From a virus: 39,781 nucleotides of DNA. The notes below the pieces were generated by a model that worked only from the letters and a program-made list of their open reading frames with translations, was not told the origin of the DNA and ran no database searches. A program made the position numbers and the translations under genes. Shown piece by piece: positions 2,998 to 37,688 of the stretch; position 1 is the stretch's first letter; each line of letters opens with the position of its first letter. The DNA is taken from the IMG/VR virus record IMGVR_UViG_3300037336_000127, positions 1-39,781 of that record, one strand, 5' to 3'.

Positions 2998-3528
2998 TTA
3001 GCGATTGTAAAAGAAAAACACTTCACCAACCGCGCGGATTGAATTGAAGTCGCCCCCACATTTGAAGTCGCGCGCCACGCTTTCCCAGTCAATATGGTTC
3101 TGGACCCAATCCGGGATTGCGGCCATATCTTGGGTTTCGCGGGTGTATTGTTCTGCAAAGTCTGCCCAATCATCGGCCCGCCCCGCGTAGTGATCACTCA
3201 GAAAACCCTCAGCATCCTCCGCGCCGTGCTCGTGCATGGCCTCAATCAACACCACGCCCGGTATATCCCAACCCATTGCCGCCTCAATAATGACAGCCCG
3301 CGCGGCCACCTCAGCCAGCCCCGCATACTCCCCCAAATCGGCCAGCCCCTCGTGGTCGTGGATTGCCCACTCCTCCGCATCGGGGACCGGGCTTGCGGCC
3401 AGCATCGCGTTCACCTCTTCTTGCATTGTTTCCACGCAATCGGTGGCATCTATCCACGCGCCATGCAAAATGCCGTTATTGTAAGCGGCAAGGCAAGCAG
3501 CATAAATCTTAGGGGTATCGTTAGCCAT
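2998..3528 (-). CDS. ardA: ArdA-family antirestriction protein
   Basis: A 176-residue protein, close to the usual ArdA length (~165-185). It has the family hallmarks in order: PKIYAACLAAYNNGILHGAW near the N-terminus, a central SPVPDAEEWAIHDHEGLADL, and FLSDHYAG with many Asp/Glu residues after it. ArdA dimers mimic the bend and charge of B-form DNA and block type I restriction enzymes and their methyltransferases. The acidic composition fits this. It lies early in the transcription order, where protection on DNA entry is needed, as T7 gene 0.3 (Ocr, a different fold) does. It is preceded by a leader cassette and an AAAGGG site. Confidence 0.93.
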   Translation of the reverse strand: MANDTPKIYAACLAAYNNGILHGAWIDATDCVETMQEEVNAMLAASPVPDAEEWAIHDHEGLADLGEYAGLAEVAARAVIIEAAMGWDIPGVVLIEAMHEHGAEDAEGFLSDHYAGRADDWADFAEQYTRETQDMAAIPDWVQNHIDWESVARDFKCGGDFNSIRAVGEVFFFYNR

Positions 3529-3607
3529 TGGGTGACCCTTTCAAAGGTTGGTTAAGGTGCGGAAAGTTGCACATGAAGGCCACCCCCTCAGGGTGACCTG
3601 TTAGTGA
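3529..3607 (-). repeat. Early-gene leader cassette, copy 3
   Basis: Third, more divergent copy, before ardA. It keeps TTTCACTAACAG, a GGTCACCCTGAGGGGGTGGCC hairpin, GTGCAACTTT and AAAGGGTCACCC. It lacks the ATCCACTAG box and has an 11-nt insertion next to GCAACTTT. Confidence 0.8.
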
Positions 3608-3611
3608 AACC

Positions 3612-3800
3612 TCAATTTCGTGGGGTGTTTGGGAACGCCTTATCTAGCGCCCGGTCTAGCGCCGCTTGTGTCCAACCATAGGCGGCCTTAAAGGTGACCT
3701 CACAGGCCCCGCAATCAAAGGCGAAAACACGCCCAAAGTCTTCTAAGGCCAGCGCATCACCTGACCAAATTCCGCGCGCATCTATTGAAGAATAATCCAT
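3612..3800 (-). CDS. Small hypothetical protein (62 aa)
   Basis: A 62-residue protein starting MDYSSIDARGIWSGDALALE. The ATG after AAAGGGTCAAC is chosen because the longer in-frame reading begins inside the repeated leader. Two cysteines (FDCGACEV) form a CxxC pair. Acidic first half, amphipathic helix at the end. No family recognised. Confidence 0.6.
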   Translation of the reverse strand: MDYSSIDARGIWSGDALALEDFGRVFAFDCGACEVTFKAAYGWTQAALDRALDKAFPNTPRN

Positions 3801-3887
3801 TGTTGACCCTTTCATGGGCTGTTTGAAGTTGCACATAAAGGCCACCCCTTAGGGTGACCTGATAGTGAAACCTTATCGCTAGTGGAT
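3801..3887 (-). repeat. Early-gene leader cassette, copy 4
   Basis: Fourth copy, before the 62-aa gene. It has ATCCACTAGCGATAAGG, TTTCACTATCAG, the hairpin GGTCACCC-TAAG-GGGTGGCC and AAAGGGTCAAC. The loop differs (TAAG in place of TGCG) while the stem is preserved, which points to selection on structure. Confidence 0.8.
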
Positions 3888-3891
3888 GTAA

Positions 3892-4233
3892 TCACTCAGC
3901 CGCAATTGAAAAGGTGCTTGGCCCAACAAACTCAACCCCGCCCGGCGTTGCCATATAGATGCAAACTTGCTGCATTGATACCGCCGCCAGCATGGCGATA
4001 TCATGCAACTTGGTGATAGCCGTAGCATCCCAAACCGCCGCAACCGCATAGCGTTGTACTTGTTCCGCGTATACCTTGCCATCTTGCGGGTCTCGCCACA
4101 TGCCCCGTGCGGTTTGCATAGTCAGGCCGCCGAAAGTGTCCATGATTTGGCTTTCGATTGCCATGATTTGGGTGACAATGTTTTCGCCATTGTTACCGAT
4201 AACAGGAAGATGAATAAAAGATTCTTGCATCAT
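3892..4233 (-). CDS. First early gene, hypothetical (113 aa)
   Basis: The first gene after the genome terminus in transcription order. Two adjacent ATGs (4233 and 4230) follow a GGGA site; the first is chosen. The protein (MMQESFIHLPVIGNN...) is largely helical with an Ala/Met-rich stretch (ITKLHDIAMLAAVSMQQVCI, about residues 72-91) that might touch a membrane. No family recognised. First-expressed T7-like genes usually counter host defences or reprogram the host; that is position-based inference. Confidence 0.65.
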   Translation of the reverse strand: MMQESFIHLPVIGNNGENIVTQIMAIESQIMDTFGGLTMQTARGMWRDPQDGKVYAEQVQRYAVAAVWDATAITKLHDIAMLAAVSMQQVCIYMATPGGVEFVGPSTFSIAAE

Positions 4234-4264
4234 TGGATAATTCCCTTGTGTGGACAGATTGAAA

Positions 4265-4731
4265 CATGAAAGCGGCCCCATAAGGTGAACCCTAAGGGCC
4301 GCTTATTCTTTCAATCACTCACTAGGAAACGCCTATTTTCTAAGGCCCGTGTGAAGCGCAACGCTTACACCTTAGGGCCGCCGATACTGTGGCTTTTTTT
4401 CCGTTCTAACGCCGCCGGGTTCTATCCGTTGGGGTTCCCTTACCGGGTTCAATGTGTGGCCCCGACACTAGCGGGTTATCTAGGCCAGTATCAGACTGGC
4501 AACGGCCCTTTCGGGAAAGAACTAGGCGGCGCTATCCAGCGGGGCCTTTCCGACTTGCAGGCGGTGGGGCCACTGAGCGCCCCGTTGCCCTAGCGATAAC
4601 TGCCTTTCGGCTCTCAACCCCTAACGGGTTCGTAGTGCTTATCTACGCAGCGCCTTATGGTTTCAGACTGTGGCACTTTAGGTCTGACAGGTTTTTCAGC
4701 TTGCGCCGGGTTCCGCTTCCCGTCTTTCGAT
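4265..4731 (-). ncRNA. Candidate large structured noncoding RNA (~465 nt)
   Basis: No convincing gene is present on either strand, but the minus strand folds densely. Helices by window position: 4663-4668/4682-4687; 4631-4635/4643-4647; 4616-4620/4626-4630; GCC-GAAA-GGC at 4602-4611; GUUAUC+UAG 4590-4600 with 4475-4483 (2-nt bulge); GGCAACGG 4498-4505 with 4582-4589; CCAGU/ACUGG 4485-4499; CCC-GAAA-GGG at 4506-4515; GGCGCU 4528-4533 with 4576-4581, extended by CAGUGG/CCGCUG 4537-4542/4570-4575; and a two-part hairpin at 4344-4379. One helix needs a G-U pair that works only for minus-strand RNA. A promoter-like site precedes it and a strong hairpin ends it. Class unknown; a cis-acting early leader is the alternative. 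Confidence 0.65.
4267..4304 (-). terminator. Strong hairpin closing the structured RNA
   Basis: A 9-bp GC-rich stem (AAGCGGCCC/GGGCCGCTT) with a loop that itself can pair (TAGG..CCTTA). It is followed on the transcribed strand by TTCATGTTTC, a weak U-tract. It may be a terminator, or a 3' stability or attenuation structure just before the first early gene's ribosome binding site. Confidence 0.5.
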
Positions 4732-4736
4732 GCCCA

Positions 4737-4766
4737 GTTATAGCCCTATGCGGAAAAATACTGCAA
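4737..4766 (-). promoter_or_regulatory. Candidate host-type promoter for the structured RNA and early genes
   Basis: On the minus strand a TTGCAG (-35-like, 4761-4766) lies 18 nt before TATAAC (-10-like, 4737-4742), giving a start near 4730. The -10 is good and the -35 is poor. Its position at the left end of the early region is where T7-like phages place host-polymerase promoters. An ATCCACTA box lies just upstream at 4782-4789. Confidence 0.4.
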
Positions 4767-4935
4767 GCGGTTATTTGTCGGTAGTGGATAGAAATAATGT
4801 TAAGCCATTGAAAAGCAACGAAAACAAAACCAAACCGATCACAAGAAACCGCCCTAAATGACCCTCACAAGGCACAGTAATAGGTCAGTATGGGTTACCT
4901 AAACGAATCAGTTAGGGCGTTGTTTGGGGTATCTG

Positions 4936-5057
4936 CCCCGATGAGGTGCCCCGATGAGGTGCCCCGATGAGGTGCCCCGATGAGGTGCCCCGATGAGGTG
5001 CCCCGATGAGGTGCCCCGATGAGGTGCCCCGATGAGGTGCCCCGATGAGGTGCCCCG
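4936..5057. repeat. 13-bp tandem repeat array (9 full copies)
   Basis: Nine uninterrupted, identical copies of CCCCGATGAGGTG starting at 4936 and a final partial CCCCG ending at 5057. Perfect identity implies recent expansion or active homogenisation. Thirteen bases is not a whole number of helical turns (about 1.25). Iterons of this kind occur at replication origins and beside T7-type terminal repeats. Confidence 0.95.
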
Positions 5058-5092
5058 CCCCAAGGGTGAACCAAGGGCAATGCAAGGTGACC

Positions 5093-5138
5093 TAAGGGTG
5101 GCCGATAAGGTGGTTTAAGGGTGGCCGATGAGGTGGTT
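5093..5138. repeat. 23-bp tandem duplication
   Basis: Two adjacent 23-bp units starting at 5093 and 5116 (first part TAAGGGTGGCCGATAAGG), differing at one base. The units share the GATGAGGTGG word with the 13-bp array next to them, so the two repeat families are related. Confidence 0.9.
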
Positions 5139-5251
5139 TAACCGATCACCCCATCTAACGGAAACAAGGTAAACAATACTGACCTATTCAAAAAAGACTG
5201 ATCAAGTCCCCTAAGGCCACCTATCCGGCCACCCTATGCCATGCCTTAGGA

Positions 5252-5590
5252 TTAGATATCCCATGCACCCCCAAGGAAATAAGGGAATTGCGCGGCGTAG
5301 TGACGTGACAAGGTGACCCCAAGCGGTTTTCTGTGGGGATAATAAAGGATAAGGCGCGCGCGAGAGGGTTCCGGCACCCCAGAGGGGGTGACTGCGGTGG
5401 CCATATAGTGTATCTCTGAGTGACAGAAATTTGCGGTGAAATGTTTCGTGAGTTGACCCTCAGGGCCGAGTGGCGCAGCCGCGAGGTACTGAGGGTGGCC
5501 CATGAACACCGCTATTATTTCACGCGGGCGGTTACTCTGTTCGTATTCATGGGCCACTGGTGGCTGCTGACCCGAAGGTGTGGGCTTCAT
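5252..5590 (-). CDS. Uncertain open reading frame (112 aa)
   Basis: An open frame of 112 codons (MKPTPSGQQPPVAHEYEQSN...) ending in PYFLGGAWDI. There is no visible ribosome binding site and no recognised family. It lies after the right-end promoter, where T7 has gene 19.5 and the terminal repeat. An opposing frame also exists. It may be a real small gene or chance openness in a structural region; I lean slightly to the latter. Confidence 0.3.
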   Translation of the reverse strand: MKPTPSGQQPPVAHEYEQSNRPREIIAVFMGHPQYLAAAPLGPEGQLTKHFTANFCHSEIHYMATAVTPSGVPEPSRARLILYYPHRKPLGVTLSRHYAAQFPYFLGGAWDI

Positions 5591-5760
5591 TCTGAGGCTA
5601 GGGCCATAGGGGTGTGGGGTCTCTTGCTTGGCATAGCCAAGGACGTACTCACCCTCAGTACCCTTCTACTCCCCTTCTAGTCCATCTTGTTGCTAGAACC
5701 TCTAGGTACACCTCTAAGGTACAGCAGGTATGGGAACCTATGAGGGAGTATCTCTTAGTC
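5591..5760. other. Non-coding stretch after the right-end promoter
   Basis: No gene seen. It holds a perfect 6-bp stem (CTTGGC-TAT-GCCAAG, ~5630-5645), another stem (GTACT/AGTAC, ~5649-5665) and a doubled TAGAAGGG word on the minus strand near 5665-5685. The initial transcript of the promoter at 5761-5778 would run through it. A degenerate promoter-like sequence lies just beyond, at 5575-5592. Confidence 0.5.
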
Positions 5761-17362: not shown

Positions 17363-19758
17363 TACAGCCTCTTTGCGCGGGTGTGGTAGGTTGCCTCCCA
17401 CTCGGCAGAGGTGAAGGAACATGGCATGAAGGAGTCCGTACTGATGATCACTTTCAAGTCTTTGTTACGGGCCAGTACAGGCACCGAGAAGCGGCCCTCA
17501 CTGAGCTTAAAGGCACCCAACCGGGCACTCTCATCAGCCAGTGTGATACCAGAGAAGGTCTTCGTGGAAGGGGACCGGGAGGTGGGATAGGAGGTGACCT
17601 CAAAGAAACCCGCCTTGGTGAAGTTCAGGTAGAGCCGCCGTATCTGTAGACGCCCATCATCCACCGCTGACACGCCCCCACCCGGCTCGTTAGAGCGTAG
17701 GTAGAAGGTGGAGAAGGTGTACTCAGAGCGGAACCGAGTGCCGCAGAAGATGCGCCGCCCTGTCCAATCACCCTCAAGCTGGAAGGTGGTCGAGGAGGGG
17801 CGTGTGAAGGGTAGGCTCAGGCCCTCTGGGTATTCCGTATCCCCGCCGCCAATAAAGACCCACAGGGGGAGTTCGGTGGAGTAAGGTAGGGTGAAGGTTG
17901 TGGTGGAACCATCAAAGAAACCCCCCGATACATATAGCCCCCGGTCCACATGGTAGTGGAAGGAGGCATCCTCATCCAAGTACCCGCTCTCAATATCAAT
18001 TGCCTCGATGTATGTACCGTCAGCGCGGGACACCACAAGATACAGGGCGGTGTCGATAAAGTCTGCGCTGAGTATTTTACCCTCGGCCCCTAAATCCCAC
18101 CGGGACCAAGAGCTTTGCAGTTTACCCTCAGAGGAGAAGAAGAACTTGTAGACCCATAGGGACCGTGGGGTTTCCGAAGAGACACCAACAAGGATGTCCT
18201 CAGAGGTGGATGCGGCCAGCTTGAAGAGGCCTTTAGGGAGATACCGTGGGACGTGAGAGGTCACATCAAGGGCATCGTTTTGTTCGTTCCCGTTCTCAAC
18301 AAAGTATTCCCGCATCCCTGTGAAGGAACCACGGGCCACTGGGAAGTAAACATATTGTCCGACACCGACAGGTCGCACCCCGGTTGCACTCTCGAACTGC
18401 GTGGACTGCGAAACGTAGGCTGTCTCCGCCGATAGAATATCTCCGCTCTCCAAGATAAACTGCGCACCCTCAGAGAACAACAAGAGGGACTTGTTGAAGG
18501 GGAGCGCGTGGTTCAAGATCGAGACCTTTGAGTTGGACACAGCGAGGTCGATTGGGTCTGTATCCAAAAGAGTTGTGGCGGTGTCTCGGTAGAAATCGAA
18601 GAACTCCCCCTGCTTTGACAGGATGATGTTCTCATCTGCCAGCATCCCAAGGCGGTTTCGGTAGAAGAAGATGTCGCTTATCTGTCTCCCAATGAAGCTG
18701 GGGTCAGGAATACTGCCCTTGTCCCCCACCTTCCGTTCAATCCAATCACCACGCCGGAAGGTGAAGGTGCCATTTGCTTCCCTGATGAGGACATGCGGCA
18801 CCGTGTCAGGGTTGAACTGGAAAGTCTCACCGCTCTTCACAGTCTCTTTCCACACCCCTGCCCCGCCCTCATCTGTGAAGCGAGAGAAGTAGTTGTCGAA
18901 GGAGGATGTATTGTCCCCCACGATTTCCGTGGAGAACCCATTAGGGGCCACTTTTGGTAGCTCTGAGAACCGCTGGATGTTGGCCCCAACAGCGATGAGG
19001 TTGACCCCGCCAGAACCATCATCAACACGAACTGTAAAAGGGGTTTGGGAACTGGAAGAAATTACCACCATACTCCCCAACGTATAATATGAGAATGTTG
19101 AGAAGTCCCCGCCACCTCGCACCATCGGACTTTGGTACGGGTGGTGAGTGGTTGTACCACCTGTGACCAAGCTGTTCACCAAATTATCGGCAATCACCTC
19201 TGTCCGAACCCAGTTCACATGCTCGGGAACCGAACCATCCGGGGTGTACATACGCGCCCGAAGGGAGTTGTTTATGATGATGTTGTAGGCTTTTCCGTAG
19301 TTCCCTGCCCGGACATAGACCAAAGCCTGATTTAGGCGAGGCGGCGTCAGGGTGGGCTGCATCTGGGCAATCCGATCACGGTTTAGGATGAAGGTATAGT
19401 CGGCCACCGTAACGGCCCTGAAAGAGTCCTTCGAGGTGTTACTGAGGTACGCATTACCGTGGGGGAAATTGACTTGTTGTTGCACCCCGGTTTTTGCATT
19501 GAATACCGATAAGTTCCCATCCCGAACCGTCACAAGATACTTCTCGTTACGGTCCCGATTGATTGTGTGGATGAACGCATCATCCTCGGGGGTAGAGGAA
19601 ATCTTGGAAAGGTGCCGCCCACCGGGTCTCCGCTTCAAGCCGTCAGAAACGGAGGAGAGAAAGTTGATCTGTTCCTCCGCTTGGGAGGCGAGGCGAAGGG
19701 TGGCGGGCTGTTGTGATACCCCGTTGATGAGGTTGGGGATGGAGGAGGTTATCAGCAT
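17362..19758 (-). CDS. Tail tubular protein B (T7 gp12-like nozzle)
   Basis: A 798-residue beta-rich protein, the size of T7 gp12 (794). It begins ITSSIPNLINGVSQQPATLR, a signature of the family, with LASQAEEQINFLSSVSDGL and KRRPGG following. It forms the hexameric nozzle that continues the portal-gp11 tube and closes the DNA channel until ejection. Overlaps the gp13-like gene at TAATG. Confidence 0.96.
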   Translation of the reverse strand: MLITSSIPNLINGVSQQPATLRLASQAEEQINFLSSVSDGLKRRPGGRHLSKISSTPEDDAFIHTINRDRNEKYLVTVRDGNLSVFNAKTGVQQQVNFPHGNAYLSNTSKDSFRAVTVADYTFILNRDRIAQMQPTLTPPRLNQALVYVRAGNYGKAYNIIINNSLRARMYTPDGSVPEHVNWVRTEVIADNLVNSLVTGGTTTHHPYQSPMVRGGGDFSTFSYYTLGSMVVISSSSQTPFTVRVDDGSGGVNLIAVGANIQRFSELPKVAPNGFSTEIVGDNTSSFDNYFSRFTDEGGAGVWKETVKSGETFQFNPDTVPHVLIREANGTFTFRRGDWIERKVGDKGSIPDPSFIGRQISDIFFYRNRLGMLADENIILSKQGEFFDFYRDTATTLLDTDPIDLAVSNSKVSILNHALPFNKSLLLFSEGAQFILESGDILSAETAYVSQSTQFESATGVRPVGVGQYVYFPVARGSFTGMREYFVENGNEQNDALDVTSHVPRYLPKGLFKLAASTSEDILVGVSSETPRSLWVYKFFFSSEGKLQSSWSRWDLGAEGKILSADFIDTALYLVVSRADGTYIEAIDIESGYLDEDASFHYHVDRGLYVSGGFFDGSTTTFTLPYSTELPLWVFIGGGDTEYPEGLSLPFTRPSSTTFQLEGDWTGRRIFCGTRFRSEYTFSTFYLRSNEPGGGVSAVDDGRLQIRRLYLNFTKAGFFEVTSYPTSRSPSTKTFSGITLADESARLGAFKLSEGRFSVPVLARNKDLKVIISTDSFMPCSFTSAEWEATYHTRAKRL

Positions 19759-19765
19759 TTTGGAC

Positions 19766-20347
19766 CTATCGGTTCATGTGAATACCCATCACCGCGTTGC
19801 TGTCGTAGAGAAAGCGTTTGCGGCGGATACGGGTGTTGTTTCGCTGGTGTGTCCAACGGGCGTTGCGCTCATCCTCAGTGGTGAAGGCGTGAAGAAGTTC
19901 AGAGGCGGTCGTCCGGGCCTGAAATAGGCGGGCAGAGCGAACCGCGATGTACTGCCGGGTCACCTCGGGGAGGTCCGAAAAGTCCACCGACCAGATCACC
20001 TGACAGGGCACCGCTGGGTGGCCTTGGAAGTTGAAGCTCATGGCCCGCGTATCATAGAGGCGCGACCCTCTGGGGGTGATGTAATCGTATTGCCGCACCG
20101 GGAGTACGACCATTGCATTGGGGGGGATTTTGATTTCAAACGGCGCGAAGCCCTCAGGATACAGAGGGTACTTCTCATCGGTATTGAAGGCCCACCCATC
20201 CACGAGGAGGGAACGAGTAACCTCTCGGAGGGCCGCTCGGGCCAACGCTACGTCAACCAGAGGGGTGTCTTCGAGGGTGTTTACGGGGGCTTCGCCAATC
20301 GTGGCCAGCATCCCGTTTACGGCGGAAAGTTCGGTAGTGGAGTCCAT
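19766..20347 (-). CDS. Tail tubular protein A (T7 gp11-like adaptor)
   Basis: A 193-residue protein, the size of T7 gp11 (196). It starts MDSTTELSAVNGMLATIGEA, the conserved start of the gp11 family (ELxAVNxML..IGE.PV); ARAALREVTRSLLVDGWAFN follows. The longer in-frame reading extends through the capsid terminator and is rejected. It forms the adaptor ring between portal and nozzle. Confidence 0.95.
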   Translation of the reverse strand: MDSTTELSAVNGMLATIGEAPVNTLEDTPLVDVALARAALREVTRSLLVDGWAFNTDEKYPLYPEGFAPFEIKIPPNAMVVLPVRQYDYITPRGSRLYDTRAMSFNFQGHPAVPCQVIWSVDFSDLPEVTRQYIAVRSARLFQARTTASELLHAFTTEDERNARWTHQRNNTRIRRKRFLYDSNAVMGIHMNR

Positions 20348-29546: not shown

Positions 29547-31256
29547 TCAGAACCCCTGCTGAGACCCCGCAAACTCATCCGTTTGGTCCACGAACTGTGG
29601 GCCATCGGGGTCGTTGCCGGGAATGAAGGTGCCTGTCAGCTTGTCAAAGAAGATGAAGTCAGCCGCCCCGGTATCCCCGGTGTAGCGGCATTTCAGAATG
29701 TGAACCTGAGCGGTGTTCCGCTGGGTCTCGGTCTCCGCCTGCTGGTTGCGGCTGATGGCGTAGACGTTGTTGGAAAGTTGCTTGATACCCCCGGAACCTC
29801 GAAGGTCGTCAAGCGATGGAACAGCGCCCTCCTCGAAGGAGACATTCCCGGTGGCCTTTTTGAGGTGACACACGAGGTGGATGGCAATGCCCAACTCTAT
29901 GGTCAGGCCTTTAAGCTGGTGCATCAGGGCATCAATGCGCCGCCGCTCATCCCCGTCTTGGTCCATGTCGGACACAAGGATGGAGAGGTGATCGAGCCAG
30001 ACGATCTTGCAATCATGGGCATGGGCGAAGTACCGGATGCGGTTCATCAGATCAACATCAGGCCCCATCGACCCGAAGGCATCATGGAAGTAGAAGCGGT
30101 GGCTGCCCCCATCATCGGTGGATAGGAATAGGTCCGCTTCGGCCCTTTCAATCTCCTCTGCGGTCACCGTCTTGGCAACCTCAGGGAGCTTCATGCGCTT
30201 CTCAATGTAGGTTGCAACCATCTCATCAGCGGTGTCTTCGAGGGGTTCCTCAAGCATGATGAGGGCTTGGTTGTAGGAGGTCGTCCGATAGAAGTGCAAC
30301 TGCAACTGACGCAGCATCGTGGTCTTACCCATCCCAGAGCCGGAGGTCCAAGTGGTTAGCTCTGCGAGGCGATCACCAAGAACCTTCTTGTTGAACTCAG
30401 GGAGCCAATCAGGGTACGCCACGGAGGCGATCAGCGGGCGGTTGCGGCGGCGGTTGATGATGTCCTGACCGAACTGAACTGAGGCCGGGGCGTAGGGCTT
30501 TGCGTTCCAGATGGCATGGATAACCGCATCGGCCTTGCCAGCTACCAGACATTCATTTGCGTCCTTGAGGGGCAGCGAAGCAACCAGCACCTTGTGTCCT
30601 GTGAGAACCTCTGCGGCTTCCTCTACGGCGACCCGACCGGGTTCATCCATATCGAACATGAGGACAACCTCATCGAAGTTCTTGAGGTAGTCGAGGGAAT
30701 GGGCGATGTCCTTCTTGGCACCCTTAGCGCCATTGATGAGGGACACCACGGGCCACTTGTTGCCTTGGATTTGGGAGACAGACATGGCATCAATCTCACC
30801 CTCGGTGATCACAATGCGTTTGCCCTTACCGGATAGGTGGGCACCAAACAGGGCAACCCCTTTGTTGTTTCCAACCCACGGCATCCCCTCGGCCTTGTCG
30901 GCAAAGCGGAGCTTCTGGGCCTGAGGGTTCCCCGACCAGTCCGTATAGGTGGCCACTTGGCAGGGCATCCCCTTGAAGGTGGCGACCTTGTAGTGATACC
31001 GGGCGCAGGTCTCAGAGGAAATCTTGCGCTTACTGAGGGGGACCACTGTTCCTTGGAGGAGGTCGGTGTTCACCTTCCGCGCTGGGCGGGACTCCCCAAC
31101 GGCGCTCCCATCAGCACGTTCATAGTGGTCGCAGGCGGCGCTGTAGCAATAGGCGTGACCATCGCTGTAGCGGGCAAGGTTATCTTTACTTCCACACTTC
31201 GGGCATGGCTCACGACCCACAAGCTGGCTGTCGTCGTCTTCATCGTAATCGCTCAT
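29547..31256 (-). CDS. Primase-helicase (T7 gp4-like)
   Basis: A 569-residue bifunctional replication protein (T7 gp4A is 566). Zinc-binding primase module: C18-x-x-C21, C37, C42. TOPRIM motifs: ITEGEIDAM (Glu152) and LMFDMDEPGR (Asp202, Asp204). RecA-like helicase: Walker A GSGMGKTT (306-313) and Walker B KIVWLDHLS. The C-terminus ends in GF, like the polymerase-interacting aromatic end of gp4. Start chosen at the second ATG, 6 nt after AAAGGA. Confidence 0.97.
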   Translation of the reverse strand: MSDYDEDDDSQLVGREPCPKCGSKDNLARYSDGHAYCYSAACDHYERADGSAVGESRPARKVNTDLLQGTVVPLSKRKISSETCARYHYKVATFKGMPCQVATYTDWSGNPQAQKLRFADKAEGMPWVGNNKGVALFGAHLSGKGKRIVITEGEIDAMSVSQIQGNKWPVVSLINGAKGAKKDIAHSLDYLKNFDEVVLMFDMDEPGRVAVEEAAEVLTGHKVLVASLPLKDANECLVAGKADAVIHAIWNAKPYAPASVQFGQDIINRRRNRPLIASVAYPDWLPEFNKKVLGDRLAELTTWTSGSGMGKTTMLRQLQLHFYRTTSYNQALIMLEEPLEDTADEMVATYIEKRMKLPEVAKTVTAEEIERAEADLFLSTDDGGSHRFYFHDAFGSMGPDVDLMNRIRYFAHAHDCKIVWLDHLSILVSDMDQDGDERRRIDALMHQLKGLTIELGIAIHLVCHLKKATGNVSFEEGAVPSLDDLRGSGGIKQLSNNVYAISRNQQAETETQRNTAQVHILKCRYTGDTGAADFIFFDKLTGTFIPGNDPDGPQFVDQTDEFAGSQQGF

Positions 31257-37604: not shown

Positions 37605-37688
37605 TGGTGCGGGTGGACGGACTCGAACCGTCACGCTGTGAAGCAACAGATTTTGAGTCTGTCGTGTCTACCATTCCACCACACCCGC
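37605..37688 (-). tRNA. tRNA-Leu (anticodon CAA) with encoded CCA
   Basis: A complete 84-nt cloverleaf. Acceptor stem GCGGGTG/CACCCGC, discriminator A and encoded CCA; D-stem GTG/CAC with GG in the loop; anticodon stem ACAGA/TCTGT with loop CTCAAAA (anticodon CAA, reads UUG); long class II variable arm; T-arm GACGG-TTCGAGT-CCGTC. All stems pair perfectly. It could supplement a leucine codon, or reflect the integrase's target, since tyrosine integrases often use tRNA genes. Confidence 0.96.

Follow-up and report, generated by a model that had tools for sequence, protein, structure and literature searches.

The region between positions 4265 and 4731 of the window, meaning the whole 39,781-nucleotide stretch of viral DNA analysed, is probably the 5' leader of a T7-type early transcript. 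The leader would comprise a host promoter, a boxA-like antitermination core, a conserved hairpin, and a terminal processing hairpin (Table 1). We favour this reading because the region matches T7-like early leaders in where it lies, in its promoter and start site, and in its boxA-like core and terminal hairpin. Briefly, host RNA polymerase would start near position 4732, from a promoter resembling those for host ribosomal RNA, and an untranslated RNA of ~500 nt would be made first. The boxA-like core, at 4522-4516, would probably recruit host NusB/S10, and this recruitment would allow the untranslated stretch, and the early operon, to escape Rho. RNase III is the most likely enzyme to cut next, at the hairpin at 4316-4258, and the leader would thereby be released from the first early mRNA. 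Later early genes are separated by similar hairpins and, within the leader, a further hairpin of 37 nt, at 4379-4343, is an RNA element under selection.

Table 1. Features of the early end of the window. Coordinates are those of the window.
Feature	Start	End	Strand	Description
13-bp tandem repeat	4934	5057		9.5 perfect copies; upstream of early promoter
Host-type promoter	4737	4766	-	-35 TTGCAG (4766-4761), 18 nt, -10 TATAAC (4742-4737); letters read directly
Untranslated early leader RNA	4234	4732	-	Predicted start near 4732; extends up to first start codon (4233)
boxA-like core	4516	4522	-	GUUCUUU (consensus GYTCTTT); GYTCTTT occurs just twice on the window's sense strand
Conserved leader hairpin	4343	4379	-	5 bp, asymmetric loop, 3+5 bp, UUG loop
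Terminal hairpin	4258	4316	-	Lower stem GAUUGAAA/UUUCAAUC, internal loop, upper stem AAGCGGCCC/GGGGCCGCUU
First early gene	3892	4233	-	PHROG 3543; ATG start at 4233, preceded by AAGGGAA
Spacer hairpin, copy 1	3826	3873	-	Before ORF starting 3800; architecture scan, fold, direct repeats
Spacer hairpin, copy 2	3563	3613	-	Before ardA (start 3528); architecture scan; whole-spacer fold predicts upper stem only
Spacer hairpin, copy 3	2932	2979	-	Before ORF starting 2907; architecture scan and fold
Spacer hairpin, copy 4	2126	2173	-	Before ORF starting 2102; architecture scan and fold
Spacer hairpin, unrelated sequence	968	1017	-	Same build; before ORF starting 935; architecture scan and fold

The window is an IMG/VR virus contig with a T7-like gene set, on the minus strand, encoding RNA polymerase, primase-helicase, DNA polymerase, connector, capsid, tail, internal virion proteins, and terminase. 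Further genes specify an integrase, a tRNA-Leu, a MarR-like regulator, and ArdA. The phage is a temperate T7-like podovirus. The tRNA-Leu gene (anticodon CAA, 37605-37688) lies ~0.9 kb from that for the integrase, and is a possible attachment site. The region of interest is flanked by the terminase gene and the first early gene, which is the early (left) end in the T7 orientation. The 13-bp tandem array is presumably comparable to the short-repeat tracts adjoining T7-type terminal repeats. Relatives have different repeats at this place. An inverted repeat, of 22 nt and 91% identity, sits on both sides of the array (4879-4900 and 5167-5188, 266 nt apart).

Six relatives (L003, L010, L011, L012, L018, and L022) were collected by terminase, polymerase, and pattern scans. 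The leader anatomy of L003, L018, and L022 is nearest to that of the window, and the RNA polymerase of L018 is 77% identical. Note that L018 and L004 are probably two halves of one phage, as they derive from a single metagenome. Alignment of the terminase against genome contigs gave no relative, and alignment of the RNA polymerase returned L018 again but no other. Nucleotide searches with the leader, in phage and plasmid records, gave chance matches or nothing. The pattern AACCGG.. retrieved L022 only. Three contigs found with the pattern AGCGTTGCGCT..CTTAG (L019, L020, and L021) were set aside as apparent chance matches in unrelated phage sequence. The relatives, together with the likeness of the promoter described below, suggest that the host belongs to the marine-type alphaproteobacteria (Rhodobacterales).

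The original prediction placed a promoter-like site at 4737-4766. Such a site is found exactly there, and recurs in the relatives. Downstream, the start region reads CATCGAA (4732-4726, minus strand) and so resembles CAYCGRA. All six relatives have the same layout, with TTG followed, 34-35 nt downstream, by YAYCG. Hence, the placement of a host-type promoter ahead of the first early gene, with activity predicted from sequence, is conserved in seven phages. In each relative, the start motif is followed by an untranslated leader of ~200-480 nt, and then by the first early gene. The CAYCGRA motif also occurs in L016, with a leader of ~50 nt, and so is not specific to long leaders. That ~465 nt lack a convincing gene, as initially proposed, agrees with our searches. 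Thus, the minus strand has no ORF of at least 40 aa between 4732 and 4282. Two plus-strand ORFs (4285-4593 and 4452-4784) have no Pfam or PHROGs match and, having no family, were rejected as genes.

Most of the leader sequence cannot be aligned among relatives, even with L018. The exception is the 'bulged hairpin' reported earlier at 4344-4379, which covaries in three phages. Its counterparts are at 7134-7170 in L022 and 820-856 in L018. All 13 pairs are standard in each of the three sequences, and five pairs have both bases changed, though three sequences are few. Pairing as good was obtained in 2 of 500 shuffles, and is destroyed by sliding one partner. A covariance model (R1), run against 318 kb, detects the window, L022, and L018 at E ~1e-17. 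The next-best match, at 30978-31020 on the plus strand of the window, has an E value of 0.038. There was no match to this hairpin in Rfam. We conclude, from these alignments, that the hairpin is a genuine, conserved, and selected RNA element. The original suggestion was to test the listed helices for compensatory changes. These are found at 4379-4343; the other listed helices fall in sequence that is unalignable in the relatives, and few of them are favoured by energy. By this comparative measure, support within the leader is confined to the ~40 nt of the conserved hairpin and to the terminal hairpin.

A second feature that we examined is the boxA-like core, for which we used the consensus GYTCTTT (PMC5725501). 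The window has the 7-nt core only, without the AANA extension of the consensus. The core is present in four of the seven leaders (window, L010, L018, and L022), where 0.075 occurrences are expected, and is absent from those of L003, L011, and L012. The rest of the sense strand (117 kb) has only four more. The enrichment has P ~1e-6, computed after the motif was seen, and four occurrences were reached in 0 of 2000 shuffles. Sequence 3' of the phage core does not match that of the host. We also looked for an extended boxA, GYTCTTT[AG]ANA, in nine known T7-like phages. It occurs in the early leaders of eight, the exception being CRP-227, which lacks the core as well. The positions are 813 in T7 (L051), 781 in T3 (L053), 656 and 926 in SP6 (L055), 728 in gh-1 (L054), 648 in LUZ100 (L057), 669 in K1F (L059), 781 in phi15 (L056), and 643 in RHEph01 (L058). 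The motif precedes the annotated genes in T7, T3, gh-1, SP6, phi15, and K1F, and is surrounded by small annotated ORFs, in the left-end region, in LUZ100 and RHEph01. Our literature search, limited to sources outside subscription, found nothing linking boxA to the T7 leader. The presence of boxA in the T7, T3, SP6, and other leaders makes Rho resistance, of early T7-type transcription, directly testable.

These two features bear on an alternative, that the region is a plain, fast-evolving 5' UTR or genome-end DNA, in which the promoter and terminal hairpin matter and the rest is spacer. It is true that conservation and unusual stability are both lacking over most of the leader. However, both the covarying hairpin and the boxA-core enrichment fall in the middle part, which should then be spacer. 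We therefore regard this explanation as unlikely, while giving it some weight.

The early leader also resembles the start of ribosomal RNA operons of the presumed hosts. Plasmid-borne rrn operons of Rhodobacterales have a TTGC(A/G) promoter element, with YACCG 35-36 nt downstream, and most carry boxA as GCTCTTTGA or GCTTTTTGA. A search of the phages with an rrn profile, using nhmmer, gave no significant match. Instead, we used a gapped promoter matrix, built exclusively from Rhodobacterales rrn operons (16 of them), and scored all phage TTG sites. The leader start ranks first in both L010 and L011 (1/792 in one, 1/1312 in the other), and between first and twelfth in five of the six relatives (L022, 3/1496; L003, 5/1968; L018, 12/1384), with L012 at 151/2248. 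The promoter of the window ranks 40th of 5832 TTG placements, and so is only in the top 0.7%. Note that the motifs were seen first, with the rrn and boxA comparisons following from them, and that leader starts were picked by eye.

At its 3' end, the leader has the strong hairpin originally placed near 4267-4304. This is significant, with a folding z of -5.1 for 4258-4313 alone. In the L003 counterpart the lower stem is changed and pairing is kept. Judged by shape and place alone, the terminal hairpin is most likely an RNase III-type processing site. Five spacer hairpins have a common build: a mismatched lower stem, a 4x4 internal loop, an upper stem of 8-10 bp, and a short loop. Four are near-identical and one is unrelated in sequence, and each is before an early start codon. 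When the minus strand was scanned for this architecture, eight matches were obtained, of which five fall at these places. L022 has a similar hairpin behind its first early ORF. In T3, R0.3 is annotated at 822-875, close before the first gene at 901. The hairpins of the window closely resemble, in their fold, both this element and the hairpin ahead of gene 0.3 in T7.

Other relatives have hammerhead ribozymes at matching places. At the border between leader and first gene, type-III hammerheads were detected, below the Rfam gathering score, in L010 (10781-10838, E 3e-7) and L011 (3199-3257, E 2e-5). A type-III-like core, seen by eye at ~9170-9232 of L012 and unconfirmed by Rfam, would place the start codon in stem III. 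Type-II hammerheads occupy early-gene spacers in L018 (1761-1828), L012 (11651-11720), and L011 (5249-5315 and 5547-5613), with weaker ones in early spacers of L003 and L010; some of the relatives' matches are below the Rfam cut-off. No type-II hammerhead was found in L022. The window had no match to the type-II model (RF02276) at E values up to 10, and no hammerhead family is among its Rfam matches. The possibility that its spacer hairpins are hidden type-II hammerheads was therefore rejected. With the leader ending in a hairpin in the window, and in a hammerhead in L010 and L011, cutting it from the mRNA looks, from sequence, like a conserved purpose.

Release of the leader, predicted in both sub-groups by way of hairpin or ribozyme, raises another explanation. 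The cut-off leader could act in trans, with a putatively abundant boxA RNA sequestering NusB/S10 of the host (or some other factor) and so lowering host rRNA synthesis early in infection. The rrn-like promoter and the boxA core would suit such a role. However, boxA normally works in cis, and the core is absent from three of the seven leaders. We consider this explanation improbable.

The original prediction was of a possible new class of large structured RNA in phages, with at least twelve helices and a core like a three-way junction, for which GOLLD and ROOL were given as precedents in size and context. As a rival explanation, this twelve-helix structure would itself be the functional object, folded globally and akin in kind to GOLLD or ROOL. 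GOLLD and ROOL are phage-associated non-coding RNAs of hundreds of nucleotides. Compared with shuffled sequences, the whole region does have a low z, of about -3.1 to -3.4. This rests on the 3' end, because the terminal hairpin has a z of -5.1 and the remainder only -1.6. Hence, a large fold beyond chance is not confirmed. By segment, z is -0.7 for the three-way junction, +0.5 for the 5' quarter, and +0.9 for 4470-4385. Coding windows on the same strand include, from few shuffles, some with z of ~-4 and one of -6.7. This lowest value (16 shuffles) is for 19601-19900, minus strand, where a 252-aa ORF ends and a 798-aa tail gene begins. The L018 and L022 leaders, through the conserved hairpin, have z of about -0.4 and 0. 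By the same measure, z is -3.4 for the T7 leader and -0.1 for that of T3. The low z of the window leader is not distinctive, since the T7 leader is equally low and that of T3 is not.

In the full transcript, junction helices P1, P2, and P3, and the long arm, have an ensemble probability of ~0. A fold made to contain the junction is 14.0 or 16.4 kcal/mol less stable than the optimum, depending on how shared bases are assigned. P1 and P2 do form when the 130-nt junction segment is folded alone. Two GAAA-capped hairpins had been proposed; that at 4602-4611 is favoured (0.8-0.9) and that at 4506-4515 is not. As anticipated, no known large RNA was matched. Thus, Rfam covariance models, run over the whole window at the gathering score, gave only tRNA, and two weak unrelated families were all that appeared in 3500-5600 at E values up to 5. 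The absence of an Rfam match, and one truly covarying hairpin, fit a novel RNA, but with the sequence outside that hairpin mostly unalignable, near-zero z in two relatives, and a T7 leader of equally low z, we think a GOLLD- or ROOL-like class very improbable. What survives of the claim is a putative promoter-driven, non-coding, minus-strand RNA with some selected structure. The claim of an exotic giant RNA gives way to testable anatomy, shared with T7, in which a boxA-bearing early leader would be cut before the first gene.

A wider proposal is more tentative. Possibly, the early transcript of the T7 family opens by mimicking the rRNA leader of the host, through an rrn-like promoter and boxA, and this leader is then clipped by RNase III or a built-in hammerhead. 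Early transcription would in this way borrow the machinery of rRNA antitermination. The clipped boxA RNA might also titrate the machinery. We regard this as a possibility, but less likely than not.

Several known systems can be compared with the leader. Like GOLLD and ROOL, it would be a phage-associated non-coding RNA of hundreds of nucleotides but, unlike them, it has no covariance-model match, and no support for a global fold. With Rhodobacterales rrn leaders it shares a TTGC(A/G) -35 element, the YAYCG start spacing (34-35 in the phages vs 35-36 in rrn), and a downstream boxA core. However, the phages have no rRNA behind, and the boxA context and remaining leader are unlike those of the host. 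Hammerhead arrays around ardA have been described in a related prophage, from Agrobacterium, that also carries marR and an integrase, where cleavage was demonstrated (Perreault et al. 2011, PMC3088659). That prophage, and L003, L010, L011, L012, and L018, have similar genes and RNA-cutting elements in similar spacers. The window and L022 differ in having RNase III-type hairpins instead. The ribozyme side was thus known already, and the new observation is of hairpins at such places. At matching positions, related phages seem to meet one cutting problem with either hairpins, for cleavage by a host enzyme, or self-cleaving ribozymes, two RNA devices that are unrelated.

The closest comparison is with the early leaders of T7 and T3, which have promoters A1-A3, R0.3, and the first early gene. 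There are differences. The window has one recognised promoter rather than three, its boxA core has no extension, and it has the extra conserved hairpin. In addition, ardA is a later early gene, while ocr is the first early gene in T7 and T3. The likenesses are an early-end position, host promoter(s), a boxA-like core, about 420-430 nt untranslated, a long interrupted hairpin close before the first early gene, and an anti-restriction function among the early genes.
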